Positions 12,288-63,478 of a stretch of DNA of 64,000 nucleotides are shown here, one piece after another. How positions within the stretch are numbered: position 1 is the first letter of the stretch; each line of letters starts with the position of its first letter. A program made the position numbers and the translations under genes. Source of the DNA: Diphasiastrum complanatum (Eukaryota > Streptophyta > Lycopodiopsida > Lycopodiales > Lycopodiaceae); contig CM055102.1 of assembly GCA_029204225.1 (NCBI GenBank), positions 27,952,969 to 28,016,968 of the forward strand. Direction: 5' to 3'. Below the pieces are notes generated by a model, which saw only the letters and a program-made list of their open reading frames with translations, was not told where the DNA came from and did not search any database.

Positions 12288-12288
12288 C

Positions 12289-17967: not shown

Positions 17968-17978
17968 GGGGGAGGGAG
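17968..17978 (+). promoter_or_regulatory. Polypurine tract of element B
   Basis: AAGGGGGAGGGAG lies immediately before the 3' LTR and overlaps the end of the pol stop region. The same tract precedes the 3' LTR of D at 60926-60938. It would prime plus-strand synthesis. Confidence 0.8.
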
Positions 17979-18325
17979 TGTTACGAGCTTGTAACCAGTG
18001 CCGAACCCTAGAGAACACAAATAGGTCAGATACCACAGTTAGGGTCGTGTCCAGCGTACATGACCAACAAGGCAAGACAGTGTGAGTAGTGTGCCCCAGC
18101 ACGGTCCATAGCCATGGCGGGCCTAACACAGCCTAGGGACCCTGTCAGCAGGATAGGGCCCCCAGTTGGGTCCCGATGTGCAGTCGGCCACGTGGCCGAC
18201 ACTTGGCAGTAGCATGCTTACAGTCCTCACACTGGGCTAGGAGGGGCTTACTCTATATCAGGGAGTGGGCAAGGTTGGGTGGATCAGTTAGTGTTTGCCC
18301 TACTGTGGTGTTAGGATCTATTACA
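17979..18325 (+). repeat. 3' LTR of element B (347 bp)
   Basis: Same termini as the 5' LTR. It is 11 bp shorter because one period between two GCCACGT direct repeats is missing. This turns the interrupted inverted repeat into an 18-bp perfect palindrome GTCGGCCACGTGGCCGAC at 18183-18200. Confidence 0.95.
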
Positions 18326-25943: not shown

Positions 25944-26061
25944 AGTCGAAGAGGATCTGGTGAAATGTTTCTAGAAAAAGGAGGAGGAGGGGGAATCTAA
26001 AGAGTCGATCAACCTTTGGCAGAGTGATCGCAGGTATGTTATCTTCTTTGTTCTGGTGGCT

Positions 26062-32727: not shown

Positions 32728-32730
32728 AAT

Positions 32731-40870: not shown

Positions 40871-41373
40871 TTGAAGGTATACAAGGGAAGGAGATCTCAG
40901 TTACCATTCATTCTATCTACCTAGGAGTTGGTAGATGGTAGTGCGCATGTACATAGCTAGGATGGTGCTGGCTAGGGGAAGGAGAAGACCAAAGGTGCTG
41001 GCAGCAGTATGGGACATCATTAGGGCTGGAAGCTAGATCTCACTTGTTTTATTGGGCTCACGGCACGGAGGGTGGATCTGGATTGGATCCTACGTTGAGG
41101 TGGATCATGAGCATTCAGTTTTTTGTGCTGACCGGCACTTGGCGTTTTCTATTAGTGTGGTCGTAACAGTTGGTATTAGAGCCACCGAAAACCATAACAA
41201 GTCTGATTGATCCATCTCGGTCAACTGTAGGTTAAATTTCATTGCTTTTGAAATTTTTTTAAAAAGTGAATCATCGAAACCCCAAAATTAGGGTTACGGA
41301 AGTTTTTTAAGTTTTTTCTTTTTTTCGAAGAACTAAAAAAAAAAAATTGTAGGCTGCAGGTCCTAGCAGCCCT
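40871..41373 (+). other. LTR-like end, primer site and leader fragment of element F
   Basis: The 46 bp at 41123-41168 (ending GTGGTCGTAACA) recurs at 48175-48221 (ending GTGGTCATAACA). The first copy is followed by TGGTATTAGAGCC (41171-41183), a one-base variant of the initiator-Met primer site. This fits the 5' LTR end of a small or internally deleted LTR element that inserted in H and was then hit by element C. The LTR start is not clear; 40871-41122 shows nothing else. Confidence 0.5.
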
Positions 41374-41825
41374 AGTTATGGACTCGGCTCATTACATTCG
41401 CCATGTCCATTTACATTTAATTTCCTTTATGCATAGGCAGGCTTTGGGCCTTTTTTTATTCATTATTTGACATTTAGACTATATGGTTGGCCTTAAGCCC
41501 TATTATTGACGTTTAGACCATATTATTGGCCTTGAGCCCTATGATTCACTATATTGGTTATTTGGTCATATTACTGAGAGTGGGGGGCCTTCTTGGAGGG
41601 CGAACTATTTTCCCTCTCAGTTTGGCCCTAGCCACTGGAAGCTTCCTTTTAGGGCTTCCTCTTGGCTATAAGTAGGGATTCTGTGTCATTTGTTACTTGG
41701 CTTATGATATGATCTCCTTCTTTAGTCTCTTTGAGCTTTCTCTCTCCTGCTTTCTAGGGTTAAGTCTTGCTTATGTGATGCTTTCATAGACTAAATCTAG
41801 ATCAGCCGTGGCTACGTTCATAACT
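41374..41825 (+). repeat. 5' LTR of element C
   Basis: AGTTATGGACTCGGCTC ... TACGTTCATAACT. It contains repeated phrases TTGGCCTTGAGCCCTAT and GACATTTAGAC. The match with the 3' LTR is close, with scattered substitutions and small indels. Confidence 0.93.
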
Positions 41826-41838
41826 TGGTATCAGAGCA
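41826..41838 (+). promoter_or_regulatory. Primer-binding site of element C
   Basis: TGGTATCAGAGCA starts immediately after the LTR and is complementary to the initiator tRNA-Met 3' end. The mirrored site in E lies just left of 63023. Confidence 0.9.
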
Positions 41839-42843
41839 CTTTCCTGAGCATCTCCATTCAGCAGATTTTTCTCTCACAGGAGGGCGCCCATCTTTAGCTT
41901 GGATCTTCACCATTTTTCAGCCGGATCTTCAGCATTTCTCCACACTTGTCTTGCAGATTTTCACGACGGATCGGAGGAGGACAGGCGCCCACTTGCTGCC
42001 CATTTCTAGCGCCCTCTTGCTGGCTGCCTACTGCTGCATTTTCAGCCTTTTTCCTCCCCTATTTTGGGCACCCTACTGCCTCCTATTTGCTGCCCTATTG
42101 GGCGCCCTCATGCTTGCTGACCAGCGCCCTACTGCTCCTTCCTTTGCTGAAAATTTCCGCTTTTTGCTGCCCCTATTCGCCACCTTCCATCAGCCACTCC
42201 TAGCGCCCTACCAACCCATCTTTTTTATCCAATTTTTTTTTGCCGTTTACTACCTCTCTTGGACGCCCACACTCCACCATAGCTGGCGCCCTACATCCGC
42301 CTCAATTTCAGCTCACCTTCCTACACTGTTGTCTGTGTTCGCAACCCTACCCCGGACAATACAAACACGCCTAGATGCTTAGAAAGCCACTCCCACCCAA
42401 CTTCATCACGCATCGGGATTGCTCCCCGTCTTTATCGCAAACTTTTTTTTACCCTTGAAGGGCGATCTCTGATTTTTCAGCCTTGTTTCCTCGCTTCCCA
42501 TACCTCCTTTTTGTTATCACTTCCTTTCCTTGGCTGCTCCCTTTCCAGCCCCATAGTCCATTATTGTTTCCCATACTTTTACCCACCATTTACTCCACGT
42601 TGTCGGGCCCTTAGCATCTTTTTTGGAGGCTGCTCGGTACCTCGACATATCGCCGCTATTTTTCAGCTCACTTCCGGTTGCGGTTACGAGGTATTTCTTA
42701 CTTAGTTGTCCTTTCCGTTCATCTTACATCGCGAGTTCTATTGTGTCTTTTCATTGGCGTGCCTGTTGTGACGACTTATGTCCTCTCCTTCAGTTCGTCC
42801 AATTGTTTAGCACATTTCTTTTCTCGCTTACTTTTTCTTCCAC

Positions 42844-45800
42844 ATGGCTAGCTCACCCACTACACCTGCGAGTCATTCCGGACCTTTAGATGAACAGTTT
42901 GCTGATGTGCGTGACTCTCTTACTCTCCTCAGTAGTTGTTTCGACCAAATGATGACCGGTTTTACCACTCTACAGACCGGCTTTACCGCTATGCAGTCAC
43001 AGATTGATTCCTTACAGCCACATGGACCTGGCAAAGCCCCTGTTCATTCATCATTTGGGTCTCCATTTGGACTTCCATCCTCGTCTACTTCCTTTGGCGG
43101 TGGGCCTCATTTTCCACCTAACCCACCGCCCGGTTTTCCACCTCCTACAGCTCCTGAGTCACATCTTCCACGACATCTAGCTCCTGAGACACATTTTGCT
43201 CGAGATTTTCGTGATCGGGTACAGCTTGCCACCTATTCTGGTTCCTCTGACGAGAACTTGTTAGAGAATTGGTTTGCAAAGCTTGATACTTATTTTCAGA
43301 TTTACCCTAAGACTGATCCTCAGAAGATCCAGTTAGCTGCCTTACATTTAGATGGACGTGCTGCCACTTGGTGGCGGGTCTACCGACTTGACCCTGATCG
43401 GGACGGTCTCCAGTTATGGCCTACCTTTCGTCGTGATCTTCGTCATGCTATGATTGACCCTCGGTGGCTGAGCCGCCAACGTGATATATTCCGTAGTCTT
43501 ACTCAGACTGGTGATCTTTCTTCCTATACATATCAGTTTATGGACCTTTCCTACCTCTTTACAGATCTTCAGCCCACCGAGCTTATTTCTCGCTACATTG
43601 CTGGACTTCGTGGTGCTCTACGATACGATGTCTCTTCTTTCCGTCCACCCACACTTGTTGAGGCCATGTCCCTTGCTAGTACTTTACAGCATAAGTACCC
43701 TGATCCTGCTCCCTTTCGCTTTTCCCGACCCCGTCCATCTCTTTCACCTCTACCATCTCCGGCCCCATCTGCCCCATCCACTGTCGTCCCGACCTCTTCT
43801 CTTACTTCTCCCACTCCTCGCCCTCCGCCTCCTCGTCCTGCTTTTGTCCGACGTTACACGTCTGCAGAGTTCGCTGACATTCAGCATAAGCGTCTTTGCT
43901 TTCGTTGTAAGAGTCCTGACCACATTGCTCGTGATTGCCGCCAGCCCCTGCCTACTTCTACTGCTATTTTCTACCATGAGGGCACTACCCCAGATGAGTC
44001 CGATATCTACATTCATATATCTGATGAGCCTGATCTATTTCCTGAGCCTTCTACTGATTTACTTCCTGCTACTTGCCATGCTCAACTTGCTTATGCTACC
44101 TGGACAGGGTGCCCCGATCCTCGCTCCATTCGGCTACGTGTGCGCATTACTGGTCGTGAGTATATTGCTTTAGTTGATACCGGCAGCACTCATTCCTTTA
44201 TCAGCAGTTATGTTCTCAGCCGGATACGCGCTTCACCTATTCCTGCTCCACAGCCTCTCACAGTCGAGGTTGCCAGTTCTCACTCATTTCCTAGTTCTCA
44301 GATGTTTCAGGGATTATCCTACCGCATTGGTGATTTTTTTGGACAGGCAGATCTTTATATCATTCCTCTGGAGCGCTATGACCTTATCCTTGGTGCTGAT
44401 TGGTTTGCTTCATTGGGAGTGGTTACTTTGGACCTGGCTCAGCAGACATTGACATTTGTTCATGATGCAGTGACCCACTCACTTGCTGGTATTGATTCTC
44501 AGGTAGATTTCCAGCTAATCAGCGGGAAGCAGTTTATCCGCAGCCTACCTAAGGCTCATTGTGCAGCTTTATTATGTGTTCAGCGTGCTGCAGCAGATTC
44601 TCCAGTGACTACCTCTCCTCCAGCAGCTGTTCCTCAGGTGATCTCTGACTTATTACATCAGTATGCATTTGTCTTTTCAGAACCTACGACGCTACCACCA
44701 TTGCGTGATGTGAACCACCATATTGATTTGCGTCCTAGTTCTGCTCCTCCCTCCCGGCCTCCTTACCGTATGTCTAAGTCTGAGCGTGATGAGGTTGAGC
44801 TTCAGATTACTGCTTTTCTAGATCAGGGCCTTATTGTTCCTAGTCACAGCCCTTTTGGTGCCCCTGTTCTCCTTGTCAGTAAGAAAGATGGTTCCAAACG
44901 CCTCTGCATTGATTATCGTGCCCTCAATAAGTTGACCATCCGTAACCAGTATCCTATTCCTCATATGGATGATCTCTTTGACCAGTTAGGCACCTCTCAT
45001 CTTTCTCTAAGATAGACTTATGTTCCGGCTATCACCACATTAGGATGCATCCTTCGGACGAACACAAGACTGCGTTTCGTACCCATCTTGGTTTGTATGA
45101 GTTTCGTGTTCTTCCTTTTGGTGTTACTAATGGTCCACCTACGTTCCAGAATGTGATGAATAACATCATGCGTCCTCTCCTTGGTCGTTGTGTTTTAGTT
45201 TATTTTGATGATATTCTTGTTTTTAGTAAGACTCTTGATGAGCATGTGTTACATCTTTCATCTGTTTTTCGATTGCTTGTTCATCACCAGTTGTTTGCTA
45301 AACTTTCTAAGTGTTCCTTTGCTGTTGTTGAGATTGAGTTTTTAGGATTTCTCATTTGTGATGGTCGTATTCGTTTGGACCCTCATAAGGTTCGGGCAAT
45401 CGCTGATTGGCCTGTTCCCACAGATGTCCACCATGTTCGTATGTTTCTTGGTCTCGCTACTCACCTTCATCGTCCTATTCCTCACTTTGCCACTGTGGCT
45501 GCCCCTCTTCATGCCCTTTTGAAGAAGTCTAGTGCATTTGTTTGGACTTCTGATTGTCAGTTCGCCTTTGACTCTCTTCGTCGTGCTGTTGTGGAGGCCT
45601 CTGTCCTGTGTTTACCACAGTTTGATCAGAAATTTATTGTTGAGACCGATGCTAGTAATGTTGGTTTGGGTGCCTTGCTTCGTCAGTCTCAGTGTATTAT
45701 TGCTTATGAGTCGCGTCGTTTACGCTCTTATGAGCAACGTTATTCTGTCCATGAGAAAGAGCTTCTTGCCATTATCTATGCTCTTAAGAAGTGGCGCCAT

Positions 45801-47383
45801 TACCTGTACCGTGTTCCTTTTGATATCGTTACTGATCATCAGTCCTTACATTATCTCTTCTCCCAGCGTGATCTTAGTGATCGTCAGTTTCGTTGGTTGC
45901 AGTTTTTACAATCTTTTGATTTTTCTATTTTGTATCGTCCTGGTCGTGCTAACACTGCTGCTGACGCATTGTCTAGACTTCCTGCTTTATTGAATACCCT
46001 TGTTGCCACGATCCCTTCCTGGTTTGATGATCTTCCATCTGCTTATCTTACATGTTCTGATTTTCGTGATGTTTATAGTTCTGCTCCACCTATGTCGTCT
46101 TCACCTCATCAGGCTTATTCCATTGTTGACCACCGTCTTTATCATTATGGTTCTCTTTGTATTCCTAGTTCTTTGGGTATCCGTTCTCAGTTGTTGTCGG
46201 ATGCTCATTCGTCCCCAGTTGGGGGTCATTTTGGTTTTCAGAAGTCTTATGCTCGTCTTAAGGATCATTTCTATTGGCCATCCCTTTGGAAAGAGCTTGT
46301 TGTACTTATTCGTACCTGTCCTTTCTGCTTACATAATAAGTACTCCCGTGCTAAGTCCGCTGGTTTGCTCCAGAGTTGGCCTATTCCTCACCGCCAGTGG
46401 ATTGATCTATGGACTTCATCATTGGCCTTCCCCGCACCCGTTGTGGTCACGATTCATGTATGGTGGTAGTTGACAGGTTCTCGAAACAGGCACATTTCAT
46501 ACCCGTCCGCAGTACTATCACAGCAGAGCAGTGTGCACGCTTGTTCCTTTCAGAGATATTTCGCCTACATGGGTTTCTTCGTACTATCCTTTCTGATCGG
46601 GATAGTAAGTTTACATCATTGTTCTGGACAGAGCTTATGCGTATATTGGATGTACAGCTTTTTATGGGGTCTGCTTATCATTCTACTTCTGATGGGCAGT
46701 CTGAGGTCCTTAACAGGATCCTTGAGGATTATTTGCGCCATTTTGTTACTCCTTCAGGGAAGGATTGGGATCAGCACTTATGTTTGGCAGAGTATAGCTA
46801 TAACAACTCTGTTAGTACCAGCACCGGCGTTGCACCATTTTTATTATCTCATGGTTATGCACCTCTTTTACCTGGTATTCCTCTTCCTCCCGAGGATACA
46901 CCTGTGACACTGTCTTCATTTCTATCAGGTGCTCGCGAGCTTATTTTCCAGGCCAGTTCCCATTTGCAGCAGGTCCAGCGTTATCAGGCTTCAGTTGATC
47001 GTCATCGACGTCATGTTGGTGATATGGTATATCTACGCCTACGGTTTACACGTCATCATTTTATTCAGGGCCATGCTTCTACTGAGAAGCTTGCACCACG
47101 TTATTATGGGCCTTATTGTATATTGGAGGTTCTTAGTCCAGTTACATATCGTCTTCAGCTTCCTGCTTCCACACGTGCCTGTGATATATTCCATGTCAGT
47201 TTATTACGTGCTGCTATTGAGGATGATGCTCCTCGTGATGCTGAGTTTCCTACTGCACCGGATCTCTTTCCTTTATTACCTGCTGCTATCCTTCAGGTGC
47301 GTTTGCATCATAGTCGATGCCGCCGGCAGATTCAGTTCCTAGTCCAGTGGGATGGTCGTCCTATTGAGGAGGCCACATGGTAG
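42844..47383 (+). pseudogene. gag-pol pseudogene of element C
   Basis: Starts [20 protein letters not shown]. Gag (capsid region around [20 protein letters not shown]) is followed by a Pro/Ser-rich linker, one CCHC knuckle [14 protein letters not shown] (about residues 352-365), and a protease core [13 protein letters not shown] (Asp near residue 445). Next come RT with YFDD, RNase H (ETDASNVGLGALL), an integrase zinc finger and core (MDFIIGLP, SDRDSKFTSLFW, SEVLNRILEDYL), and a chromodomain-like end FLVQWDGRPIEEATW. Compared with E, one T is missing near 45005 and four bases near 46408, each shifting the frame, and GAG became TAG at the end (47381-47383). A 12-bp in-frame loss lies near 47010. 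Confidence 0.93.
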
Positions 47384-47577
47384 CCTATTGATGTTTTTTA
47401 TCATACATCGTCACTTGTGGATCAGGCTCGTGCTCTTGCCGCACTTGTTGACTCCTCTACATCAGCTGTTGCTCCAGTTGTTACTACACCAGATGCTGTT
47501 CCAGTTGATCCTCCAGGGCTTGCTGTTACTTGATCCAGTCCTTTATGGCAGTTGGGTCTTATTTTTGTGTCGGGGAG

Positions 47578-48027
47578 AGTTATGGACTCGGCTCATTACA
47601 TTTGCCATGTCCATTTACATTTACTTTACTTTATGCATAGGCAGGCTTTGGGCCCTTTTTTATTCATTATTTGACATTTAGACTATATGATTGGCCTTGG
47701 GCCCTATTATTGACATTTAGACCATATTATTGGCCTTGGGCCCTATGATTCACTATATTGGTTATTTGGTCATATTACTGAGAGTGGGGGCCTTCTTGGA
47801 GGGCGCACTATTTTCCCTCTCAGTTTGGCCCTAGCCACTGGAAGCGTCCTTTTAGGGCTTCCCTTGGCTATAAGTAGGGATTCTGTGTCATTTGTTACTT
47901 GGCTTATGATATGATCTCTTTCTTTAGTCTCTTTAAGCTTTCTCTCTCCTGATTTCTAGGGTTAAGTCTTGCTTATGTGATGCTTTCATAGACTAAATCT
48001 AGATCAGCCGTGGCTACGTTCATAACT
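47578..48027 (+). repeat. 3' LTR of element C
   Basis: Same termini as the 5' LTR. The preceding purine stretch GTCGGGGAG is a short candidate polypurine tract. Confidence 0.93.
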
Positions 48028-48174
48028 GCCCTCCTCTGCTTGCAGCTAGCAGGGCCAGCAGGCCCTTGTTGGCCAGCCAACAGGGCATAGAGGGGTAGGG
48101 GGGGTGGATTGTCCATCCTAGCTCCTAGCCTATGTGAAGAAAAGGGGGGGAGGGGGTGGTGGATTGCCACTCAC

Positions 48175-48400: not shown

Positions 48401-48890
48401 AGTATCGCATATTAGGCATGCAAAGATATCTATTGAAGCAGGACAAATCTCAATTCAAACATCAATTGATTCTATATTATCTAGTTGAAGAGCTCTTTTT
48501 AAGACTTGAAGATGGAAAAAGAAGAAACCAGACACATCACCTCTGTTAAAGACTTAAAAAAGCAGCTCACTCGTGTTGGTGAAGAAATAAGAAATAGAGA
48601 GCTTATGTTTATTACACTGAATGATCTTGCTCCTTCATTTCAGACTTTTGTTACTGTTTTGAGTATTTCTCTAAGGAAAAATCTTGAGAACTTTAAAGTT
48701 CTTGTCAGAATGTTGTTTCAAGAAGATCTAAGAGTTAGAGATTATGTATACAAGCAAGCTTTTCAAGCTATGGAAACTAAAGAGAAATTCATGGCATCCA
48801 GAGAAGGATTTTTCAAACTCTTTGTGGAGTCCAAGACATCCTACACATTCCAGAGACACAAAGGCAATGAGTGATCACCCTAGCTCTTGC

Positions 48891-49295
48891 TGGAAATATC
48901 AATCCACACTCTAAAGAGAACCATCAAATAGGGTAGATAACTCAATGTAAGAGCATTCCATCCAATATGAGGGAGGTATTGGGTTTAAATCCTAGTCTGT
49001 GAATTCAAATTATGATTTATGGATTCTTAACATGGTATTAGAGCCAAGTTAGAACTAACAGTTCATGGTGTCAAAGACATGGTTAGGAGTGGCCCAAGTT
49101 GTAAGGCCAGTGACAACCAGGACCTCAACCAAGTGTGGCTTGAGTGGGGTTGTTGGACATTTCAATCCACACTCTAGAGAGAACCATCAAACAGGGCGAA
49201 TAGCTCAGTGGAAGAGCATCCCATCCGGTATGAGTGAGGTCCTAGATTCGATTCCTAGCAAGTCCATCCATATCATGAATTATGCATTTCTAACA
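48891..49295 (+). mobile_element. TRIM-like element with tRNA-promoter-bearing terminal repeats
   Basis: Two direct repeats of exactly 142 bp (48891-49032 and 49154-49295) align without gaps at about 77 percent identity by hand count (33 mismatches). Both start TGGA and end TAACA, giving TG...CA ends. Directly after the first comes TGGTATTAGAGCCA, a variant of the initiator-Met primer site. The internal region is only 121 bp and non-coding. This is the architecture of a terminal-repeat retrotransposon in miniature. Each repeat has a tRNA-like Pol III promoter, clearer in the second. No clean target duplication was found (CTTGC against GCGCT), so two adjacent tRNA-derived SINEs remain an alternative. 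Confidence 0.68.
49201..49255 (+). promoter_or_regulatory. tRNA-like Pol III promoter (A and B boxes) in the TRIM 3' repeat
   Basis: TAGCTCAGTGG at 49201-49211 is a perfect A box and GATTCGATTCC at 49245-49255 is a B box with one mismatch. The D-arm GCTC...GAGC and four of five T-arm pairs (CTAG with CTAG around TTCGATT) are retained. The 3' acceptor half is not complementary to GGGCGAA, so this is not a functional tRNA gene. The equivalent boxes in the first repeat (about 48938-48992) carry several changes. Confidence 0.65.
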
Positions 49296-49479
49296 GCGCT
49301 TTCAAGTCTTCATCAAATCAAAAGAAGGAAAGGCGTCAATTACTATTGTCTCAAATTTGGCCATTTCATAATACAATGCAGAAGTGACATTTTGCACAAA
49401 ACAAGAGAGATCCAAAGAAGTAGAAAAAAAATAGGGAGCGGACATGCAATTAACCAATCCAACCATAGAGCATAGACAT

Positions 49480-50101: not shown

Positions 50102-50394
50102 TGTTAGACGCCGGTTAGGGTATTCCACAGGTACGACCAATTACTAGGGGCCAAGGGCCATGGTATTGGCAAGGGCTAGTAACTGGAATGGACACCCATT
50201 GGGTTCGATGCATCACCGGCAGTGACCCAATGTGACTGCCTGACAGGATGTTAGTAAGCGAAGTTATGACCGTATGGACCCTAGCCATCAACAGCGGACA
50301 AGCTTATGTTGGACGAGCAGCTAGCTAGCAATATGTTGGATGACCGTGTGTGTCACAGGTCCATGACAAGGCATGGGGGGGGGGGGGGGGGGGT
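50102..50394 (+). repeat. Left part of a split LTR, element G (inferred)
   Basis: TGTTAGACGCCGG at 50102 could be an LTR start, and the right part would be 63479-63678, ending GTGCCA before a primer site. Joined across element E this gives an LTR of about 490 bp. The inference rests on the TG start, the target duplication of E on both sides, and the primer-like site on the right. Confidence 0.42.
50375..50393. repeat. (G)19 homopolymer at the left junction of element E
   Basis: Nineteen consecutive G residues, ending one base before the E LTR and overlapping its GGGGT target duplication. The run length may be inexact in the assembly. Confidence 0.9.
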
Positions 50395-50845
50395 AGTTAT
50401 GAACGTAGCCACGGCTGATCTAGATTTAGTCTATGAAAGCATTACATAAGCAAGACTTAACCCTAGAAAGCAGGAGAGAGAGAGCTTAAAGAGACTAAAG
50501 AAGGAGATCATATCATAAGCCAAGTAACAAATGACACAGAATCCCTACTTATAGCCAAGAGGAAGCCCTAAAAGGAAGCTTCCAGTGGCTAGGGCCAAAC
50601 TGAGAGGGAAAATAGTGCGCCCTCCAAGAAGGCCCCCACTCTCAGTAATATGACCAAATAACCAATATAGTGAATCATAGGGCCCAAGGCCAATAATATG
50701 GTCTAAATGTCAATAATAGGGCCCAAGGCCAACCATATAGTCTAAATGTCAAATAATGAATAAAAAAGGGCCCAAAGCCTGCCTATGCATAAAGTAAAGT
50801 AAATGTAAATGGACATGGCAAATGTAATGAGCCGAGTCCATAACT
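50395..50845 (-). repeat. 3' LTR of element E
   Basis: Plus-strand text runs AGTTATGAACGTAGCC ... GAGTCCATAACT. The opposite LTR at 63023-63473 matches closely. Confidence 0.93.
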
Positions 50846-51087
50846 CTCCCCGACACAAAAATAAGACCCAACTGCCATAAAGGACTGGATCAAGTAATAG
50901 CAAGCCCTGGAGGATCAACTGGAACAGCATCTGGTGTAGTAACAACTGGAGCAACAGCTGATGTAGAGGAATCAACAAGTGCGGAAAGAGCACGAGCTTG
51001 ATCCGCAAGTGACGGTGTATGATAAAAGACATCAATAGGCTCCCATGTGGCCTCCTCAACAGGACGACCATCCCACTGGACTAGGAA

Positions 51088-54000
51088 CTAAATCTGCCGA
51101 CGGCGTCGACTATGATGCAAACGCACCTGAAGGATAGCAGCAGGTAATAAAGGAAAGAGATCCGGTGCAGTAGGAAACTCAGCATCACGAGGAGCATCAT
51201 CCTCAATAGCAGCACGTAATAAACTGACATTGAATATATCACAGGCACGTGTGGAAGCAGGAAGCTGAAGACGATATGTAACTGGACTAAGAACCTCCAA
51301 TATACAATAAGGCCCATAATAACGTGGTGCAAGCTTCTCAGTAGAAGCATGGCCCTGAATAAAATGATGACGTGCAAACCGTAGGCGTAGATATACCATA
51401 TCACCAACATGAAACTCAACATGACGTCGATCACGATCAACTGAAGCCTGATAACGTTGCTGGACCTGCTGCAAATGGGAACTGGCCTGAAGAATAAGCT
51501 CGCGAGCACCTGATAGAAATGAAGACAGTGTCACAGGTGTATCCTCGGGAGGAAGAGGAATACCAGGTAAAAGAGGTGCATAACCATGAGATAATAAAAA
51601 TGGTGCAACGCCGGTGCTGGTACTAACAGAGTTGTTATAGCTATACTCTGCCAAACATAAGTGCTGATCCCAATCCTTCCCTGAAGGAGTAACAAAATGG
51701 CGCAAATAATCCTCAAGGATCCTGTTAAGGACCTCAGACTGCCCATCAGAAGTAGAATGATAAGCAGACCCCATAAAAAGCTGTACATCCAATATACGCA
51801 TAAGCTTTGTCCAGAACAATGATGTAAACTTACTATCCCGATCAGAAAGGATAGTACGACGAAACCCATGTAAGCGAAATATCTCTGAAAGGAACAAGCG
51901 TGCACACTGCTCTGCTGTGATAGTACTGCGGACGGGTATGAAATGTGCCTGTTTCGAGAACCTGTCAACTACCACCATACATGAATCGTGACCATGACGG
52001 GTGCGGGGAAGGCCAATGATGAAGTCCATAGAAATATCAGTCCACTGGCGGTGAGGAATAGGCCAACTCTGGAGCAAACCAGCGGACTTAGCACGGGAGT
52101 ACTTATTACGTAAGCAGAAAGGACAGGTACGAATAAGTACAACAAGCTCTTTCCAAAGGGATGGCCAATAGAAATGATCCTTAAGACGAGCATAAGACTT
52201 CTGAAAACCAAAATGACCCCCAATTGGGGACGAATGAGCATCCGACAACAACTGAGAACGGATACCCAAAGAACTAGGAATACAAAGAGAACCATAATGA
52301 TAAAGACGGTGGTCAACAATGGAATAAGCCTGATGAGGTGAAGACGACATAGGTGGAGCAGAACTATAAACATCACGAAAATCAGAACATGTAAGATAAG
52401 CAGATGGAAGATCATCAAACCAGAAAGGGATCGTGGCAACAAGGGTATTCAATAAAGCAGGAAGTCTAGACAATGCGTCAGCAGCAGTGTTAGCACGACC
52501 AGGACGATACAAAATAGAAAAATCAAAAGATTGTAAAAACTGCAACCAACGAAACTAACGATCACTAAGATCACGCTGGGAGAAGAGATAACGTAAGGAC
52601 TGATGATCAGTAACGATATCAAAAGGAACACGGTACAAGTAATGGTGCCACTTCTTAAGAGCATAGATAATGGCAAGAAGCTCTTTCTCATGGACAGAAT
52701 AACGTTGCTCATAAGAGCGTAAACGACGCGACTCATAAGCAATAATACACTGAGACTGACGAAGCAAGGCACCCAAACCAACATTACTAGCATCGGTCTC
52801 AACAATAAATTTCTGATCAAACTGTGGTAAACACAGGACAGAGGCCTTCACAACAGCACGACGAAGAGTGTCAAAGGCGAACTGACAATCAGAAGTCCAA
52901 ACAAAAGCACTAGACTTCTTCAAAAGGGCATGAAGAGGGGCAGCCACAGTGGCAAAGTGAGGAACAAGACGACGAAGGTGAGTAGCGAGACCAAGAAACA
53001 TACGAACATGGTGGATATCTGTGGGAACAGGCCAATCAGCGATTGCCCGAACCTTATGAGGGTCCAAACGAATACGACCATCACAAATGAGAAATCCTAG
53101 AAACTCAATCTCAACAACAGCAAAGGAACTCTTAGAAAGTTTAGCAAACAACTGGTGATGAACAAGCAATCGAAAAACAGATGAAAGATGTAACACATGC
53201 TCATCAAGAGTCTTACTAAAAACAAGAATATCATCAAAATAAACTAAAACACAACGACCAAGGAGAGGACGCATGATGTTATTCATCACATTCTGGAACG
53301 TAGGTGGACCATTAGTAACACCAAAAGGAAGAACACGAAACTCATACAAACCAAGATGGGTACGAAACGCAGTCTTGTGTTCGTCCGAAGGATGCATCCT
53401 AATCTGGTGATAGCCGGAACGTAAGTCTATCTTAGAGAAAAGATGAGAGGTGCCTAACTGGTCAAAGAGATCATCCATATGAGGAATAGGATACTGGTTA
53501 CGGATGGTCAACTTATTGAGGGCACGATAATCAATGCAGAGGCGTTTGGAACCATCTTTCTTACTGACAAGGAGAACAGGGGCACCAAAAGGACTGTGAC
53601 TAGGAACAATAAGGCCCTGATCTAGTAAAGCAGTAATCTGAAGCTCAACCTCATCACGCTCAGACTTAGACATACGGTAAGGAGGCCGGGAGGGAGGAGC
53701 AGAACCAGGACGCAAATCAATATGGTGGTTCACATCACGCAATGGTGGTAGCGTCGTAGGTTCTGAAAAGACAAATGCATACTGATGTAATAAGTCAGAG
53801 ATCCCCTGAGGAACAGCTGCTGGAGGAGAGGTAGTCACTGGAGAATCTGCTGCAGCACGCTGAACACATAATAAAGCTGCACAATGAGCCTTAGGTAGGC
53901 TGCGGATAAACTGCTTCCTGCTGATCAGCTGGAAATCTACCTGAGAATCAATACCAGCAAGTGAGTGGGTCACTGCATCATGAACAAATGTCAATGTCTG

Positions 54001-54846
54001 CTGAGCCAGGTCCAAAGTAACCGCTCCCAATGAAGCAAACTAATCAGCACCAAGGATAACGTCATAGCGCTCCAGAGGAATGATATAAAGATCTGCCTGT
54101 CCAGAAAAATCACCAATGCGGTAGGATAATCCCTGAAACATCTAAGAACTAGGAAATGAGTGAGAACTGGCAACCTCGACTGTGAGAGGCTGTGGAGCAG
54201 GAATAGGTGAAGCGCGTATCCGGCTGAGAACATAACTGCTGATAAAGGAATGAGTGCTGCCGGTATCAACTAAAGCAATATACTCACGACCAGTAATGCG
54301 CACACGTAGCCGAATGGAGCGAGGACCGGGGCACCCTGTCCAGGTAAAATAAGCAAGCTGAGCATGGCAAGTAGCAGGAAGTAAATCAGTAGAAGGCTCA
54401 GGAGATAGATCAGGCTCATCAGATATATGAATGTAGATATCGGACTCATCTGGGGTAGTGCCCTCATGGTAGAAAACAGCAGTAGAAGTAGGCAGGGGCT
54501 GGCGGCAATCACGGGCAATGTGGTCAGGACTCTTACAACGAAAGCAAAGACGCTTCTGCTGAATGTCAGCGAACTCTGCAGACGTGTAACATGGGACAAA
54601 AGCAGGACGAGGAGGCGGAGGGCGAGGAGCGGGAGAAGTAAGAGAAGAGGTCGGGACGACAGTGGATGGGGCAGATGGGGGCCGGAGATGGTAGAGGTGA
54701 AAGAGATGGACGGGGTCGGGAAAAGCGAAAGGGAGCAGGATCAGGGTACTTATGCTGTAAAGTACTAGCAAGGGACATGGCCTCAACAAGTGTGGGTGCA
54801 CGGAAAGAAGAGACATCGTATCGTAGAGCACCACGAAGTTCAGCAA
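51088..54846 (-). pseudogene. pol and distal gag of element E
   Basis: In sense order: the gag end with knuckle [14 protein letters not shown] (about 54550), protease [13 protein letters not shown], a CAG-to-TAG stop (54144-54142), and a TGG-to-TAG stop (54042-54040). The RT-RNase H frame 54030-52555 ([43 protein letters not shown]) ends at a CAG-to-TAG stop. The integrase frame 52545-51088 (GGHFGFQKSYARLKDHFYWP, MDFIIGLPRTRHGHDSC, SDRDSKFTSLFW, SEVLNRILEDYL) ends at another CAG-to-TAG, just before the chromodomain-like LVQWDGRPVEEATWE. RT and integrase are otherwise intact within their frames, better than in C. Confidence 0.93.
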
Positions 54847-54897
54847 TGTAGCGAGAAATAAGCTCGTGGGCTGAAGATCTGTAAAGAGGTAGGAAAG

Positions 54898-55255
54898 TGT
54901 TACGAGCTCGTAACCAGTGCTGAACCCTAGAGAACACAGATAGGTCAGATACCACAGTCAGGGTCGTGTCCAGCGTACATGACCAACAGGGCAAGACAGT
55001 GTGAGTAGTGTGCCCCAGCACGGTCCATAGCCATGGCGGGTCTAACACAGCCTAGGGACCCTGTCAGCAGGATAGGGCCCCCAGTTGGGTCCCGACATGC
55101 AGTCGGTCACGTCAGTGCCACGTGGCCGACACTCGGCAGTAGCATGCTACCAGTCCTCACACTGGGCTAGGAGGGGCTTACTCTATATCAGGGAGTAGGC
55201 AAGGTTGGGTGGATCAATTAGTGTTTGCCCTACTGTGGTGTTAGGATCTATTACA
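54898..55255 (+). repeat. 5' LTR of element D
   Basis: TGTTACGAGCTCG ... TCTATTACA. The inverted repeat with the CACGTG core is present, with one substitution in the left arm (GTCGGTCACGT). Confidence 0.95.
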
Positions 55256-56159
55256 CTGGTATCAGAGCCATCTCCATCCTAGGGAACTCAGGTTTCAGCA
55301 GTGGAGAAAGTAGCTAGATTGCTCAGAACTTCTTCAAGTTCTCAAAAAGAAATAGAGGAGGAGACTCGCTGTAGGAACAGTCTCCGACTGAGGAAATCTT
55401 GGTGGATTTACTTGCTGGTCAGAGAGAAATTAGTTAAAATTTCTAGAGCAGGTCCAGCGCTGTAAATTTAGTCTTCATCTCTGATTTTTGCCATCAGATT
55501 CAGAGAGTCAGAGCTGATTTTTGAGGAGAAAGGGTGGTGCTGATCCATCGCTGAGGGATCAGAAATCTACCTCTGAAATTTCAGAGAAATCTAAGGAAAT
55601 TTGAAGGGTTTTCAAACACTTTTTCTTAGCAGGGCCAGCGCTGGACAGGGAGATGAAAAATTAGTTTTTCATCACTGTTTTTGAGGATTTTTCAGTAGTT
55701 TGAACATCAAACTAGATTGCCACAGACCAGCGACCTACTACTTGAAGTCAGATCAGAGTTTCAAGCAAGTTTTGGGCCTTAAATTTTAAAAAATTGGGCC
55801 AGACAGGTGGCTGTCCAGCTAGCGAGGGTAGGGAGACACCAAAATCAGAAATTGAAATACTTTTTGGGTCTCAAATCAGAAGTAAACGAGCCAGTTGGGT
55901 TGCAATCAGACTAGCGAGCTACTATCCTCAGAGAACCGGGAAATTTGGCACCGTTTTGAAGCTTCAAACTGGCATTTTTCGGGACAGCAGGTCTGAAATC
56001 TTGAGGAAAAGAGTTGAAAGGGTTCCTCTTCATTCTTTCTTTGGAAGTACAGTCCTCAGAAACAGCTAAGTCATCTTTCCTTTCCCTTGTACAGTTGTAA
56101 ATTAGTCTTTTAGACTTTTTTCCTTCAAAAGTTAAGGTAGCTCTCTTTCAGTTCCGAAG
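55256..56159 (+). other. Untranslated leader of element D
   Basis: 904 bp from the LTR end to the gag ATG, nearly the same length as in B but strongly diverged over about 55430-55800, while both flanks are almost identical to B. No coding frame is supported. Confidence 0.7.
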
Positions 56160-59100
56160 ATGACCACTCCTCAGGGACCTGATCAACCCCAGGAGAGAGG
56201 CTTCGACGAACTTGAAACAGAAGCCTTGGCTTACAGGAAAGGGAAGGAACCTATGGAAGTGGAAGAACAGGAACAGTTCGCCGAAGAACTCGACGAACTG
56301 GTTACCAAGGAGCAGTTCCTCCAATTGGTAACAGAAGTGGATGAACTGCAGTTGGCATTAGCCAATTTCAAGCCCAGTGTGGACGACTCGTTCGCTGAAC
56401 TCAAAAGCTTGATTTTGAGTTCCGTGAAAGGAAGCCTTCCCTCCACTTCTCAGTTATCCCCTTCTCCACTTCCATCAGTTTCGGGTGAGACTTTACGGTC
56501 TCACCCCAGTGTTTTTAAAGATTTAAAACCTCCTACTTTTAATGGGGAAGAGAAGGATAGAAATGCAGATATTCTACAAACCTTCCTCAACAAATGGAAG
56601 AACATTCATGCTCTTAAACAGACCCCTGACCATTTGCAACCAATTGAGGCCAGTCTTTCTTTAGGGCCTATGGCCTATAAGTGGTGGTTAAATCTCCAGG
56701 AGACTGGGCAGACTCCCCGGTCATGGAAAGCTTTCGAAGAAGCTTTCCTAAGAGAATTTCTACCAGAAAATGAACTGGATAGAGCCTGGGAAGCCTGGGA
56801 AAGAACAGTAATGGATAAATCCCTCATCCAATATATCTCACAGTATCGAGAAGCAATTTTAAAGATTAAAAATATGGATGACTATCAGAAAATCAGGGGA
56901 TTTGTCCGTGGCCTCAAAGATGAATATAAAGTAGAGGTCCAGAGAAACTCGCCTACTACCCTTGAGCAAGCTCTCAGATATGCTCAAATCTATGATGATT
57001 CAGTGGGTAGGAAGAAGGCGAGACAACAGCCACTTTCTGAGCAGCCTTCTCAGAAAGACTTTCAATTTAAAAAGAAATTTTTAAAAAGAAAGAAAGAAGA
57101 CAAATTTAAAAGTGAAGCTCCTCAGAAACGCCCTTCACTCATACAGCCCTTAAAACCAGATGATTTTGAGAAAGCCAAACAAGAACGTTTGTGCTTTGTG
57201 TGTATGGGCAAGGGACACACAGTCAGACAGTGTCCCAAGGGGCCTTTCACTAAAAAAGATAAGAAAGATAAAAAACAAGTTCATCTTGTTCAGACTGTAT
57301 GTTTCCCCAGTGACTCGGCAGCTTCCGAGATCAAAGTGTATCATGAAGATCATGAACACTGTTGCCAGCTGACCTCTGCAATGCTAGCGAGACCCTTCAG
57401 CTTTGGGCCGCATGACCTAGTACGTATGCATGGGAAAGTTGGTAACCAGTCAGTAAGAGTCATGGTTGATGATGGGGCAACCCATAATTTCATCAACCAC
57501 ACCCTGGTTAAAAAGCTTAAACTACCAGAAGTACCTAGTCAGCATAGGTACATAGTTTCATTAGCTAAGGGTGAAGATAAAAAAATATGGGAAACTATGG
57601 TAAGTAAGTTAAATATTGGTATTCAGGGGTACCAAGATGAAATAAACTTTCAGATAATGCACCTGGATCGAACAGACATTGTTCTCGGGAGAGATTGGCT
57701 CTACAGTTTAGGACCTTCCCTCCACAGAAACTATCAGGAGAACACCCTCAGCTTTCAGCATAAAGGCCGAGAGATCCAGTTGCATGGGGAGCATGATGTT
57801 CCCAACAACCCTATGGTCTGCAGTTCAGAACTCTGTAAGCTAATCGGAGACGAAGACCATCAGGTATTCTTATGTGACTTTCAGTTTATTCCTGAAATTT
57901 CTATTTCCAGTTCTATTCAGCAGAAAATCAGTAAATTAAAAACTTTATTGTCTAGATTTAAAGATGTTTTTCCTGAAGATTTGCCACATGGTTTACCACC
58001 TAGCAGAGAGGTAGATCATGTAATAAACCTAGTACCAGGTACAGCACCTGTTTCTAAACCTCCGTATCGGGTCAGCCGAACAGAGGATGAAGAAATAACT
58101 AGGCAGTTAACAGACTATCTTGGGAAAGGCCAGATTCAGACCAGTAGTTCACCATGGGCCTCACCAGTCCTATTGGTGAAAAAGAAAGAGGGGTCTATGC
58201 GTCTTTGCGTAGATTACAGAGCCCTCAATAAAGTCACAATCAAGAATAAATACCCTATGCCTCGGGCAGACGAGCTGTTTGATCAACTCGACGGGGCTAA
58301 GTTTTTCAGCAAAATAGACCTTAGATCGGGATATCATCAAGTCCGTATAAAAGCGGAAGATGTCTCGAAAACAGCTTTTAGGACTCGTCACGGTCATTAT
58401 GAGTTTAAGGTGATGCCATTTGGGCTCACAAATGCTCCAGCTACCTTTATGACCTTGATGAACAGTGTCCTCAGACCATACTTGGGTAAGTTTGTAGTCG
58501 TATTTTTAGATGACATCCTCGTCTACAACAAAACGAGGAAGGAGCATCTAAAACACCTCAGAAAGGTGTTTCGACTGCTCAGAAAGCATAAGCTTTATGC
58601 TAAACAATCCAAGTGTGAATTCTTCGTTGAAGAAGTAGCATATTTGGGTCACATTATCTCTTCAGATGGGATTAAGATGGACCCAAATAAGGTTAAAGCC
58701 ATACTCAGTTGGCTGAGACCTCAGAATATTTTGGAACTTCAAATCTTTCTTGGTCTGGCGGGATATTACAGACGATTTGTCAAGGAATATGCTCAGATAG
58801 CAGTCCCTATGACAAATCTCCTTAAAGGGAAGGGAAAGGAGTTCATTTGGGAGTCCGCACAACAGGAGAGCTTTGATGCTCTCAAAACAGCCTTAGCTAC
58901 AGCACCAGTTTTAAAAGTCGTCGACCCCAATCAGCCATTTGTGGTCGAAACAGATGCTAGCGACTTTGCAGTAGGTGCTGTGCTAACTCAGGGTGGACGA
59001 CCAGTTGCGTTCGAGAGTAAAAAACTCGAGCCAGCTCAGACTAGGTACAGTGCCTATGAAAAGGAACTCTTTTCTATAGTCCATGCCCTTAAGCCTTGGA

Positions 59101-59384
59101 GGCATTATTTGTATGGTGCCAACTTTGAGGTCCTGACAGACCATGAGAGTCTCAGATACCTTTGCAATCAACCTGAGCTTAGAGGTCGGAAAGCTCGTTG
59201 GGCAGAGTTGATGCAAGAGTTTGACATGTCTATCAGATATAGGCGTGGAAAATTCAATACAGTAGCAGATGCCCTTAGCAGAATGCCTATGATAAACGAG
59301 CTGAGTTTTACTCAGATTCGTAATGAGTTACTCGAGTCCTTGAGAGGGAAATGCCAGCATGATGCATTCTTCTCTATTATCTAG
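56160..59384 (+). pseudogene. gag-protease-RT-RNase H polyprotein of element D
   Basis: A single 1074-codon frame from [15 protein letters not shown]. Gag capsid is at about residues 110-310 ([20 protein letters not shown]). The CCHC knuckle [14 protein letters not shown] is at 345-358, the protease [11 protein letters not shown] with Asp at about 437, RT with [20 protein letters not shown] and FLDD at about 782-785, and RNase [18 protein letters not shown] near 930. A TGG-to-TAG change at 59382-59384 stops the frame before the integrase; B has TGG there. Gag and pol share one frame with no slippage site, as usual for chromoviruses. Everything up to the stop looks coding-competent. Confidence 0.94.
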
Positions 59385-60927
59385 AACTCAGTCCAGAACA
59401 GACAGTTACAGACTCCAGAACCAGTTCGCGGGGCTAGTGCCAGTTCATCCAAGAATACGGCAGCTTCCGTTGAGGATGATGATGAGTCCGAGTATACGTC
59501 GTCAGATGACGTTGAGGATTTTGAGCCTGTATTACCCAAGCAAACCCCAGTGGTTGAGGGTCAGTTGACTCAAGGATTCAAATGGAAACAATATTCCATT
59601 CAGGATGAGTACTTGTGTCCCCAATTCAGAGGATTATAGGCAGCAGGTCCTATATGAATGTCATGACAATCCTAGCGCGGGACACCCAGGCATACAGAAG
59701 ACCTATGAGCTTCTTCGTAGGCAATTTTTCTGGCCCAGTATGAAAAAGGACGTCCACCAGTATGTAACCAGTTGCCAGAAATGTCAAGTAAATAAAGCAG
59801 GGCGTTTAAAGGCAGGAGGGTTGTTGCATCCCTTGGAAATACCAGCTGATAAATGGGAGAGTATCTCCATGGATTTTATAGTAGGCCTGCCTAAAACCCA
59901 AAAGGGTAATGACGCTATATGGGTCACAGTTGACCGTCTGACCAAAATGGCTCATTTCATTCTGACCAAAACAACCGTTAGAGCTCCAAAGTTAGCGAGG
60001 TTGTTTGTAGACGGGCTATTTAAATTGTACGGTCTACCTTCCGGCATAGTCAGCGACCGGGACAGTAAGTTTACTGGAAATTTTTGGAGGGCAGTATTCC
60101 ATCATCTCCATACTAAACTTAATATGAGTACCACCGACCATCCACAGACGGACGGTCAAACAGAAAGGGTAAATCAAGTGCTGGAGGATATGCTTCGTGC
60201 ATACGTCAGCAAGAAGCAGACTAATTGGGAGGAGTATCTTTCGATATCAGAATTTGTTTACAACAGTACCAAACATTCAGCTACGGGATACAGCCCATTT
60301 ATGCTGATGTACGGTTTTCAGCCACGCTCACCTACAGCTGTAGGGTTTAAACAAGAAAAAGTTGAAGCAGCCAGAAACTTTTTAGAGGACCTAAACCAGA
60401 TGATAGAACATGCTAAGTGTAGCATTAGGCAGTCCCAGGATCGAGCCAGGCATTATGCAGATCCACACAGACGGGATGTGCAGTTCTCCACTGGTGAGAA
60501 AGTCTACTTGAGAGTCCCAGTTGACTCTAAAACCCTCAAATCAGGAGTGTGTGCTAAGTTGTCTCCAAGGTATTGTGATCCCTTTACCATCAGTAGGAGA
60601 CTAGGCGAGGTCACCTATAAACTAGAACTCCCACACAGCAGTAAGGTTTTTCCAGTCTTTCATGTAAGTCAGTTACGAAAAGCCTTAGCCAGATCAAACA
60701 ATCTGGTAGGGGACAGTGTTCTAGTTCTCCCATTGGATCCTCAACAACCTCCACATGAACCAGAGGAGATTCTTGATAGTAGAGAGACGCAGACTCGTCA
60801 TACTCTATACCGAGAATATATGGTTAAGTGGAATGATCAGCCTGTTGAGAATGCCACTTGGGAAAGAGGCAGCGTCCTTCGCAAGATTTTTCCAGACTTT
60901 GTCTTAGAGGACCAAGATGGTTCTTAA
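59385..60927 (+). pseudogene. Integrase and chromodomain of element D
   Basis: After the stop, a 20-bp deletion near 59616 (relative to B at about 16652) shifts the frame; the rest reads continuously from 59605. It has the HHCC zinc finger (H at residues 20 and 27 of that frame, C at 57 and 60), then catalytic D90 (MDFIVGLP), D151 (SDRDSKF) and E187 (TERVNQVL), spaced as DD35E. The C-terminal barrel is GEKVYLRVPV and the chromodomain EYMVKWNDQPVENATWE (about 405-425). The chromodomain probably guides integration to specific histone marks. The frame ends normally at 60925-60927, beside the purine tract. Confidence 0.92.
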
Positions 60928-60938
60928 GGGGGAGGGAG

Positions 60939-61296
60939 TGTTACGAGCTAGTCACCAGTGCCGAACCCTAGAGAACACAGATAGGTCAGATACCACAGTC
61001 AGGGTCGTGTCCAGCGTACATGACTAACAGGGCAAGACAGTGTGAGTAGTGTGCCCCAGCACGGTCCATAGCCATGGCGGGCCTAACACAGCCTAGGGAC
61101 CCTGTCAGCAGGATAGGGCCCCCAGTTGGGTCCCGACGTGCAGTCGGCCACGTCAGTGCCACGTGGCCGACACTTGGCAGTAGCATGCTACCAGTCCTCA
61201 CACTGGGCTAGGAGGGGCTTACTCTATATCAGGGAGTAGGCAAGGTTGGGTGGATCAGTTAGTGTTTGCCCTACTGTGGTGTTAGGATCTATTACA
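60939..61296 (+). repeat. 3' LTR of element D
   Basis: Same termini as the 5' LTR. It keeps the full GTCGGCCACGT ... ACGTGGCCGAC inverted repeat. Nine substitutions against the 5' LTR. Confidence 0.95.
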
Positions 61297-61301
61297 GAAA
61301 G

Positions 61302-62004
61302 GTCCATAAACTGATATGTATAGGAAGAAAGATCACCAGTCTGAGTAAGACTACGGAATATATCACGCTGGCGGCTCAGCCACTGAGGGTCAATCATAGC
61401 ATGACGAAGATCACGACAAAAGGTAGGCCATAACTGGAGACCGTCCCGATCAGGGTCAAGTTGGTAGACCCGCCACCAAGTAGCAGCACGTCCATCTAAA
61501 TGTAAGGCGGCTAACTGGATCTTCTGAGGATGATGTCTTAGGGTAAATCTGAAAATAAGTATCAAGCTTTGCAAACCAATTCTCTAACAAGTTCCCGTCA
61601 GAGGAACCAGAATAGGTGGCAAGCTGTACCCGATCACGAAAATCTCGAGCAAAATGTGGCTCAGGAGCTAGATGTCGTGGAAAATGTGACTCAGGAGCTG
61701 TAGGACGTGGAAAACCGGGCGGTGGGTTAGGTGGAAAATGAGGCCCACCGCCAAAGGAAGTAGACGAGGATGGAAGTCCAAATGGAGACCCAAATGATGA
61801 ATGAACAGGGGCTTTGCCAGGTCCATGTGGCTGTAAGGAATCAATCTGTGATTGCATAGTGGCAAAGCCGGTCTGTAGAGTGGTAAAACCGGTCATCATT
61901 TGGTCGAAACGACTACTGAGGAGAGTAAGAGAGTCACGCATATCAACAAACTGTTCATTGAAACGTCCGGAATGACTCGCAGGTGTAGTGGGTGAGCTAG
62001 CCAT
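61302..62004 (-). pseudogene. Proximal gag of element E, up to the D insertion
   Basis: Begins at the ATG at 62004 with [20 protein letters not shown], continues through [20 protein letters not shown] and [20 protein letters not shown], then shifts frame near 61533 (one extra base against C). In the second frame it reads [20 protein letters not shown] up to [11 protein letters not shown], where D is inserted. The sequence resumes at 54897 with the gag codons that follow in C ([14 protein letters not shown]). Confidence 0.88.
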
Positions 62005-63022
62005 GAGGAAGAAAAAGTAAGCGAGAAAAGAAATGTGCTAAACAATTGGACGAACTGAAGGAGAGGACATAAGTCGTCACAACAGGCACGCCAATGAAAA
62101 AACACAATAGAACTCGCGATGTAAGATGAACGGAAAGGACAACTAAGTAAGAAATACCTCGTAACCGCAACCGGAAGTGAGCTGAAAAATAGCGGCGATA
62201 TGTCGAGGTACCGGGCAGCCTCCAAAAAAGATGCTAAGGGCCCGACAACGTGGAGTAAACGGTGGGTAAAAGTATGGGAAACAATAATGGACTATGGGTC
62301 TGGAAAGGGAGCAGCCAAGGAAAGGAAGTGATAATAAAAAGGAGGTATGGGCAGCGAGGAAACAAGGCTGAAAAATCAGAGATCGCCCTTCAAGGGTAAA
62401 AAAAAGTTTGCGATAAAGACAGGGAGCAATCCCGATGCGTGATGAAGTTGGGTGGGAGTGGCTTTCTAAGCATCTAGGCGTGTTTGTATTGTCCGGGGTA
62501 GGGTTGCGAACACAGACAGCAGTGTAGGAGGGTGAGCTGAAATTGAGGCGGATGTAGGGCGCCAGCTATGGTGGAGTGTGGGCGTCCAAGAGAGGTAGTA
62601 AACGGCAAAAAAAAATTGGATAAAAAAGATGGGTTGGTAGGGCGCTAGGAGTGTCTGATGGAAGGTGGCGAATAGGGGCAGCAAAAAGCGGAAATTTTCA
62701 GCAAAGGAAGGAGCAGTAGGGCGCTGGTCAGCAAGCATGAGGGCGCCCAATAGGGCAGCAAATAGGAGGCAGTAGGGTGCCCAAAATAGGGGAGAAAAAA
62801 GGCTGAAAATGCAGCAGTAGGCAGCCAGCAAGAGGGCGCTAGAAATGGGCAGCAAGTGGGCGCCTGTCCTCCTCCGATCCGTCGTGAAAATCTGCAAGAC
62901 AAGTGTGGAGAAATGCTGAAGATCCGGCTGAAAAATGGTGAAGATCCAAGCTGAAGATGGGCGCCCTCCTGTGAGAGAAAAATCTGCTGAATGGAGATGC
63001 TCAGGAAAGTGCTCTGATACCA

Positions 63023-63473
63023 AGTTATGAACGTAGCCACGGCTGATCTAGATTTAGTCTATGAAAGCATCACATAAGCAAGACTTAACCCTAGAAAGCA
63101 GGAGAGAGAAAGCTTAAAGAGACTAAAGAAGGAGATCATATCATAAGCCAAGTAACAAATGACACAGAATCCCTACTTATAGCCAAGAGGAAGCCCTAAA
63201 AGGAAGCTTCCAGTGGCTAGGGCCAAACTGAGAGGGAAAATAGTGCGCCCTCCAAGAAGGCCCCCACTCTTAGTAATATGACCAAATAACCAATATAGTG
63301 AATCATAGGGCACAAGGCCAATAATATGGTCTAAATGTCAATAATAGGGCCCAAGGCCAACCATACAGTCTAAATGTCAAATAATGAATAAAAAAGGGCC
63401 CCAAGCCTGCCTATGCATAAAGTAAAGTAAATGTAAATGGACATGACGAATGTAATGAGCCGAGTCCATAACT
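63023..63473 (-). repeat. 5' LTR of element E
   Basis: Immediately to its left on the plus strand is GTGCTCTGATACCA (63009-63022), the inverted initiator-Met primer site, which fixes the LTR end and the orientation. Confidence 0.93.
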
Positions 63474-63478
63474 GGGGT

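Follow-up and report, generated by a model that had tools for sequence, protein, structure and literature searches.

Two multicopy TRIM families with tRNA-like modules in their LTRs in Diphasiastrum complanatum, probably of the Helenus type

The stretch of Diphasiastrum complanatum DNA analyzed here (64,000 nucleotides of contig CM055102.1, positions 27,952,969 to 28,016,968 of assembly GCA_029204225.1, referred to below as the window) contains a small LTR element that is very probably an old copy of a multicopy TRIM of the Helenus (TRIMp3) type, an assignment made by structural features. Common ends, a primer site (PBS), a polypurine tract (PPT), 5-bp target-site duplications, and arrays of LTRs and cores together show that the family is replicated through an LTR-type cycle. 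The tRNA-like A and B boxes within the LTRs make initiation by RNA polymerase III (Pol III) reasonably probable. Elements of this kind are already known; by the structural features tested, the family of the window copy, here called F1, and a second TRIM family with an LTR of 153 bp, here called F2, are new plant families of that kind.

RESULTS

Anatomy and setting of the window copy

Self-comparison of the window revealed two direct repeats with a spacing of 263 bp and 77% identity over 146 bp (E 1e-24). A first-pass annotation made from the sequence alone had described a unit from 48891 to 49295, with TG...CA direct repeats of 142 bp each around a 121-bp noncoding core. The TG...CA termini, the equal length of the repeats, and the right end stand; the repeats are 145 bp each, the left start having been placed 3 bp too late, and the core is 118 bp (Table 1). 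With a start at 48888, the left and right LTRs begin with TGCTGG and TGTTGG, respectively, and both end in TAACA. A start at 48891 leaves no 4-of-5 duplication when paired with the end at 49295 and was rejected, as the family LTR limits and the target duplication both point to 48888. Because a 4/5 match is also reached by chance with several alternative pairs of ends a few bases away, the limits of the window copy were chosen from the LTR ends of the family. The noncoding core opens, as had been proposed, with an initiator-Met (iMet)-type site: it begins with TGGTATTAGAGCCAAG, one change from the TGGTATCAGAGCCAAG that a family copy has at this place and that we take to be the plant iMet primer site.

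The window copy is old and decayed, with 34 of 145 sites differing between its LTRs (K2P 0.29). In the left LTR, 15 of the 27 changes relative to the family are C to T or G to A, which explains why the boxes of this LTR are hard to read, and 15 of the 73 positions of its tRNA-like segment differ from the family majority.

Table 1. Features of the window copy and its flanks (positions in the window)
Feature	Position	Strand	Remarks
Whole element	48888-49295	+	408 bp (LTR + core + LTR), without coding capacity
Left target-site duplication, GCTCT	48883..48887	.	4/5 match to GCGCT at 49296-49300
5' LTR	48888..49032	+	145 bp, TG...CA, decayed; limits as in family copies
Decayed tRNA-like segment of 5' LTR	48931..49003	+	Homologous to 49194-49266
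Decayed boxes of 5' LTR	A ~48938, B ~48982	+	Box pair at positions equivalent to those in the 3' LTR
Noncoding core	49033..49150	+	118 bp
Primer site (PBS)	49033..49050	+	TGGTATTAGAGCCAAGTT, adjoining the LTR end; TGGTATCAGAGCCAAG in a family copy
Polypurine tract, decayed	49140..49150	+	TTGAGTGGGGT; TTGAGGGGGG in a family copy
3' LTR	49151..49295	+	145 bp, TGTTGG...TAACA; limits as in family copies
tRNA-like module of 3' LTR	49194..49266	+	Rfam RF00005, 25.6 bits, below gathering score
A box of 3' LTR, TAGCTCAGTGG	49201..49211	+	0/11 positions off family majority
B box of 3' LTR, GATTCGATTCC	49245..49255	+	2/11 positions off family majority (family mostly GGTTCGAATCC)
Right target-site duplication, GCGCT	49296..49300	.	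Pairs with GCTCT at 4/5

The first-pass annotation had also placed tRNA-like A and B boxes in each repeat, and this applies to the right copy, where the box pair scored 1.90 against consensus boxes; this was the best pair in the 64-kb window, compared with 1.70 for the best of 20 Markov-shuffled windows. The left pair lies at the same positions but is decayed, and its score of 1.47 is within the chance range. The only match at an E value of up to 1 in an Rfam scan of the window was the tRNA model at the right LTR, which remained under the gathering score of 29 bits and had an E value of 0.51 for the whole library over 64 kb, or about 1e-4 when divided by the 4227 families. ARAGORN found no tRNA in the 64-kb window, and single-strand folding of segments of the window copy was no better than that of shuffles. 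The acceptor stem of the window copy is broken, its right B box reads GATTC, and it contains no TTTT, a lack shared by 344 of 1000 shuffles and so unremarkable. A 24-base pattern taken from the tRNA-like segment matched two prokaryote records, both in bacterial tRNA-Val genes, which tells us no more than how closely the segment resembles a tRNA; no matches were obtained from two pattern scans of viral contigs.

Around the element lie the decayed remains of a Copia-type gag (48515-48868 and 49296-49400; Pfam Retrotran_gag_2, E 2e-4, below the cut-off), and at the inferred empty site, gag-like frames lie on both sides, out of step by one base. Other mobile elements crowd the window. One Gypsy element is present in pieces that are 98% identical (41370-48034, 50388-54897, and 61297-63477) and that lie in opposite orientations around the TRIM. 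A different Gypsy element occurs at 11927-18325 and, with 94% identity, again at 54895-61296, where it splits one piece of the first; a Gypsy protein search gave one match. LINE reverse transcriptase fragments are found at 24285-25970 and 31603-32730 (minus strand), and the best named match for the reverse transcriptase at 31606-32175 is from the fern Adiantum nelumboides (52%).

Family F1 in the genome

A search of the 1.74-Gb assembly with the unit gave at least 54 matches from the 40 candidates scored out of 1133, and full-length F1 matches outside the window were 82 to 88% identical. We fetched 39 F1 loci, drawn from the best matches, so that older copies are perhaps undersampled. The order LTR/core/LTR, with at least two LTRs, is kept in all 39, and the outermost LTR ends fall at the same points as in the window copy, save for damaged ends in L024 and L048. 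The LTR is 144 bp long in 82 of 89 cases and 140 to 146 bp in the remainder. The 34 copies with two LTRs measure 403 to 406 bp. The F1 cores, that of the window copy included, are 115 to 118 bp long, and in a family copy the core is bordered by TGGTATCAGAGCC... (PBS) and ...GAGGGGGG (PPT).

Five-base-pair duplications flank the 39 loci exactly in 30 cases, at 4/5 in 3, and with fewer matching bases in 6, compared with 14 exact among 1482 cross pairs of all 39 loci, a number that includes repeats of one flank. When each flank was counted once, exact duplications were found in 24/33 (control, 2/1056), and when near-identical flanks were merged as well, they were found at 23 of 32 distinct sites (cross-paired control, 1/992), with no duplication at 6 of the 32. 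Multiple genome copies with common ends and 5-bp duplications, as the first-pass annotation had anticipated, are thus present (39 loci, with exact duplications at 23/32 distinct sites), and the TRIM architecture that it proposed is borne out by the common ends, duplications, primer site, and purine tract of these copies. The fetched copies include none of the forms that it had named as evidence against an LTR element, namely copies that end elsewhere and lone tRNA-like units bearing their own tails and duplications. Its expectation of solo repeats was not borne out: no solo LTR was present among 29 loci inspected from an LTR-only search (40 scored of 616 candidates; some of the 29 are among the 39). 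In each of these 29 loci, the core lies within 800 bp of the repeat, and at least 4/5 duplicated bases were found in 14 and not in 15, many of the latter being incomplete. A search with the core (40 scored of 1091 candidates) gave 40 matches outside the window; we inspected 9 of these loci, and each held the same TRIM and no autonomous partner.

The LTR pairs of the 34 two-LTR loci are 0 to 7 substitutions apart, with 0 to 1 substitutions in four loci, two of which represent one duplicated site. If decay rates are alike, the fetched copies would be much younger than the window copy.

Arrays of 3 to 5 LTRs are present in 5 of the 39 loci (L013, L031, L032, L038, and L043), two of which (L031 and L032) have a common flank. 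In a set that includes L107 in addition to these five, tandem LTR-core-LTR-core arrays carry one exact flanking 5-bp duplication in 4/6 cases. A second primer-site-like stretch, TGGTGTCAAAGCCATGG, lies at about position 34 of the F1 core and aligns with the start of the F2 core, hinting at an inner duplication.

The tRNA-like module across F1

The tRNA-like character of the LTRs, which is faint in the window copy, is clear in the family. The fold check that had been suggested for the repeat gave a consistent outcome: the Rfam tRNA threshold was passed by 44/44 LTRs in the 20 of 39 loci scanned (30.5 to 53.0 bits). ARAGORN reported a tRNA at every one of the 39 loci and assigned the anticodon variously to Thr (GGT, in most cases), Ile, Ser, or Pro. 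The cloverleaf is complete, with a 7-bp acceptor stem, and each pair of the acceptor, D, and T stems is formed in 66 to 75 of 75 LTRs. At one position of the anticodon stem, however, there is an A-A mismatch in 75/75 LTRs, which makes a working tRNA unlikely.

An exact A box, TAGCTCAGTGG, is found in 69/89 LTRs, and the B box reads GGTTCGAATCC in 67/89 and GGTTCAAATCC in 12/89. Conservation within F1 is 97.8% for the A box and 97.9% for the B box, compared with 98.9% for the LTR upstream and 98.6% downstream, in copies that are too young for these values to tell much. A TTTT stretch occurs in 6/89 LTRs and in 0/50 cores.

A second family, F2

At L013, the F1 array is inserted, with a GTGGT duplication, in the 3' LTR of an F2 element of about 379 bp (1131-1479, minus strand; LTR, 153 bp; core, 73 bp). 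With this element as the query, at least 41 matches were obtained from 40 scored of 681 candidates. Besides the query, 19 F2 loci (L087 to L105) were analyzed, 18 of which have two LTRs of 152 to 153 bp and a core of 72 to 73 bp, the exception being L096 with its truncated second LTR. Each of the 18 cores opens with TGGTATCAGAGCC and closes with TTGAGGGGGAG, or with close variants of these. Exact 5-bp duplications were found at 14/19 loci, or at 10 of 14 distinct sites (control, 1/182), and no duplication was found at 4 of the 14.

The A box is exact in 33/37 F2 LTRs, and the B box GGTTCAATCCC is present in 34/37. Rfam gave 18 tRNA matches with 39.6 to 57.8 bits in the 9 loci scanned, and anticodon calls were nearly all undefined in 14 scanned F2 loci. 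A TTTT stretch occurs in 32/37 LTRs and only at LTR positions 145 to 149, starting at 146 in 31 LTRs and at 145 in 1; it stands four bases before the LTR end and is followed by CACA or a similar sequence. It is possible that this stretch acts as a Pol III terminator.

In a comparison of one copy from each family, alignment of the F1 and F2 LTRs was confined to the module and the roughly 20 bp that precede it, with a score of 47 against a shuffle maximum of 14; the 5' and 3' parts scored 7 and 4, respectively, against shuffle maxima of 11. The cores, again one copy each, gave a weak alignment with a score of 18 versus a shuffle maximum of 16. Since the LTRs align over the module region alone, the module is the lasting part.

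The Rfam scan of L013 gave four further tRNA matches, from elements outside F1. Diverged, tRNA-like and LTR-like pieces at 1494-1556 (minus strand) and 1838-1910 (plus strand) of this locus reached 34.0 and 31.6 bits, respectively, and are perhaps more families or old copies.

DISCUSSION

TRIMs with tRNA-derived LTRs were named Helenus by Kojima in 2024, and TRIMp3 was proposed there as a name for any TRIM that has a Pol III promoter, a function that is described for Helenus as expected and not proven (PMC10886601). The first-pass annotation, which knew of no established TRIM family that uses a tRNA promoter, is therefore out of date on this point, with the proviso that Pol III activity is unproven in that description too. 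Helenus elements, as described, are similar to F1 and F2 in being TRIMs of <1 kb with tRNA-derived sequence in both LTRs, a PBS, and a PPT; the plant elements have 5-bp target duplications, as do F1 (23/32) and the window copy (4/5), and the Helenus A box TRGCY plus YGG and B box GGTTC recur in F1 (TAGCTCAGTGG in 69/89 LTRs and GGTTCGAATCC in 67/89). The hosts listed are fungi, animals, and, among plants, only Selaginella moellendorffii (PMC10886601). The family of that plant, Helenus-1_SMo, has an LTR of 120 bp and a core of 85 bp (PMC10886601) and thus differs by description from both F1 (LTR, 144 to 145 bp; core, 115 to 118 bp) and F2 (LTR, 153 bp; core, 72 to 73 bp); the elements found here are also set apart from its description by an iMet primer site and by arrays with 3 to 5 LTRs. 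For a zebrafish Helenus family, tandem arrays are described too (PMC10886601). By title and abstract, no other open-access paper on tRNA-carrying TRIMs was found among the matches listed.

Cassandra, as described, resembles F1 in having the promoter of a small-RNA gene in TRIM LTRs, a Met primer site, and tandem arrays, but its module is 5S rRNA, whereas that of F1 is a tRNA. Rfam scans of the window and of 20 F1 loci gave no 5S match, and with no 5S rRNA-derived sequence in the LTRs, identity with Cassandra was rejected. The plant TRIMs and SMARTs of Gao 2016 (PMC4717578) are similar to F1 in size, two LTRs, a noncoding core, and LnIn tandem arrays; a tRNA module is unreported in the main text of that work, from which the words tRNA and polymerase III are absent.

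The anatomy of the copies suggests how such an element may be replicated. Transcription by Pol III would begin a short way before the tRNA-like module in the 5' LTR, at about LTR position 40, and would proceed across the core as far as the 3' LTR and into it, giving an RNA that has the module region at both ends (R). A tRNA-iMet would then prime the first strand at the core start, the strong-stop DNA would jump to the 3' LTR, and the purine tract would prime the second strand. Reverse transcription and integration would be completed by the enzymes of an autonomous Copia element, a partner to which the iMet primer site and the 5-bp length of the duplications point, as also for fungal Helenus in its description (PMC10886601). 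In F2, termination within the 3' LTR could take place at the TTTT at LTR positions 146 to 149. TTTT is missing from most F1 LTRs, and the F1 RNA would thus have to end in the downstream flank; such an end should be tolerated because the 3' LTR is rebuilt from strong-stop DNA.

The repeats could be read instead as two tandem tRNA-derived SINEs, which have A and B boxes of tRNA origin like those of F1. SINEs lack LTR ends, a PBS, and a PPT and insert by target priming, and a SINE-like head is seen within each repeat when it is taken alone. A core nevertheless stands between the repeats in the 39 fetched loci and within 800 bp in each of the 29 LTR-only loci, it is bordered by the primer site and the purine tract, and the duplications flank the whole LTR-core-LTR unit, so that tandem SINEs are ruled out for the copies seen and are extremely improbable overall. 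Hardly any likelihood attaches to a real tRNA gene cluster or a tandem tRNA gene duplication, even though ARAGORN calls tRNA-Thr(GGT) in most copies; dispersal with target duplications, the anticodon-stem A-A mismatch in 75/75 LTRs, and anticodon calls that are inconsistent across the F1 loci (Thr, Ile, Ser, and Pro) and almost always undefined across the 14 F2 loci scanned led us to reject it.

Harder to dismiss, yet in our view rather unlikely, is that the module is a passenger, an old SINE or tRNA insertion hitchhiking in a TRIM that is transcribed by Pol II from the LTR. This would fit with the lack of TTTT in 83/89 F1 LTRs and with F1 boxes that are no better conserved than the remaining LTR. 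On the other hand, a passenger would not lead one to expect near-consensus A and B boxes in both families, a TTTT placed only just after the module in F2, or an alignment of F1 with F2 that is confined to the module and the 20 bp or so before it (score, 47, versus a shuffle maximum of 14; one copy each). The tRNA-like RNA might also serve in processing, through RNase P or RNase Z cuts, or in packaging, either instead of promotion or besides it. A whole cloverleaf with a 7-bp acceptor stem goes beyond what a promoter needs, and the terminator is mostly missing in F1; the pairing is accounted for just as well by a recent tRNA or SINE origin, however, and such a role seems to us quite remote. Initiation by Pol III from the tRNA-like boxes continues to be the reading that we favor.

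A more speculative extension, which we put forward as doubtful, is that TRIM families can exchange the tRNA-like unit as a promoter cassette and that Pol III-driven LTR retrotransposition persists by the swapping of modules, with no need for a terminator in the LTR and perhaps with RNA ends made by RNase P or RNase Z. The idea stems from the presence of at least two TRIM families that have unrelated LTR ends and a common tRNA-derived module, with TTTT near the LTR end in one, where it would define R, and mostly none in the other.

In summary, Selaginella is the sole plant among the Helenus hosts of the 2024 description (PMC10886601), to which F1 and F2 add further plant families. Genomes of this sort can yield many false tRNA-Thr(GGT) calls. 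With at least two multicopy families, young copies, arrays, and a well-placed TTTT in F2, this genome is a good system for addressing the question of Pol III-driven LTR retrotransposition.
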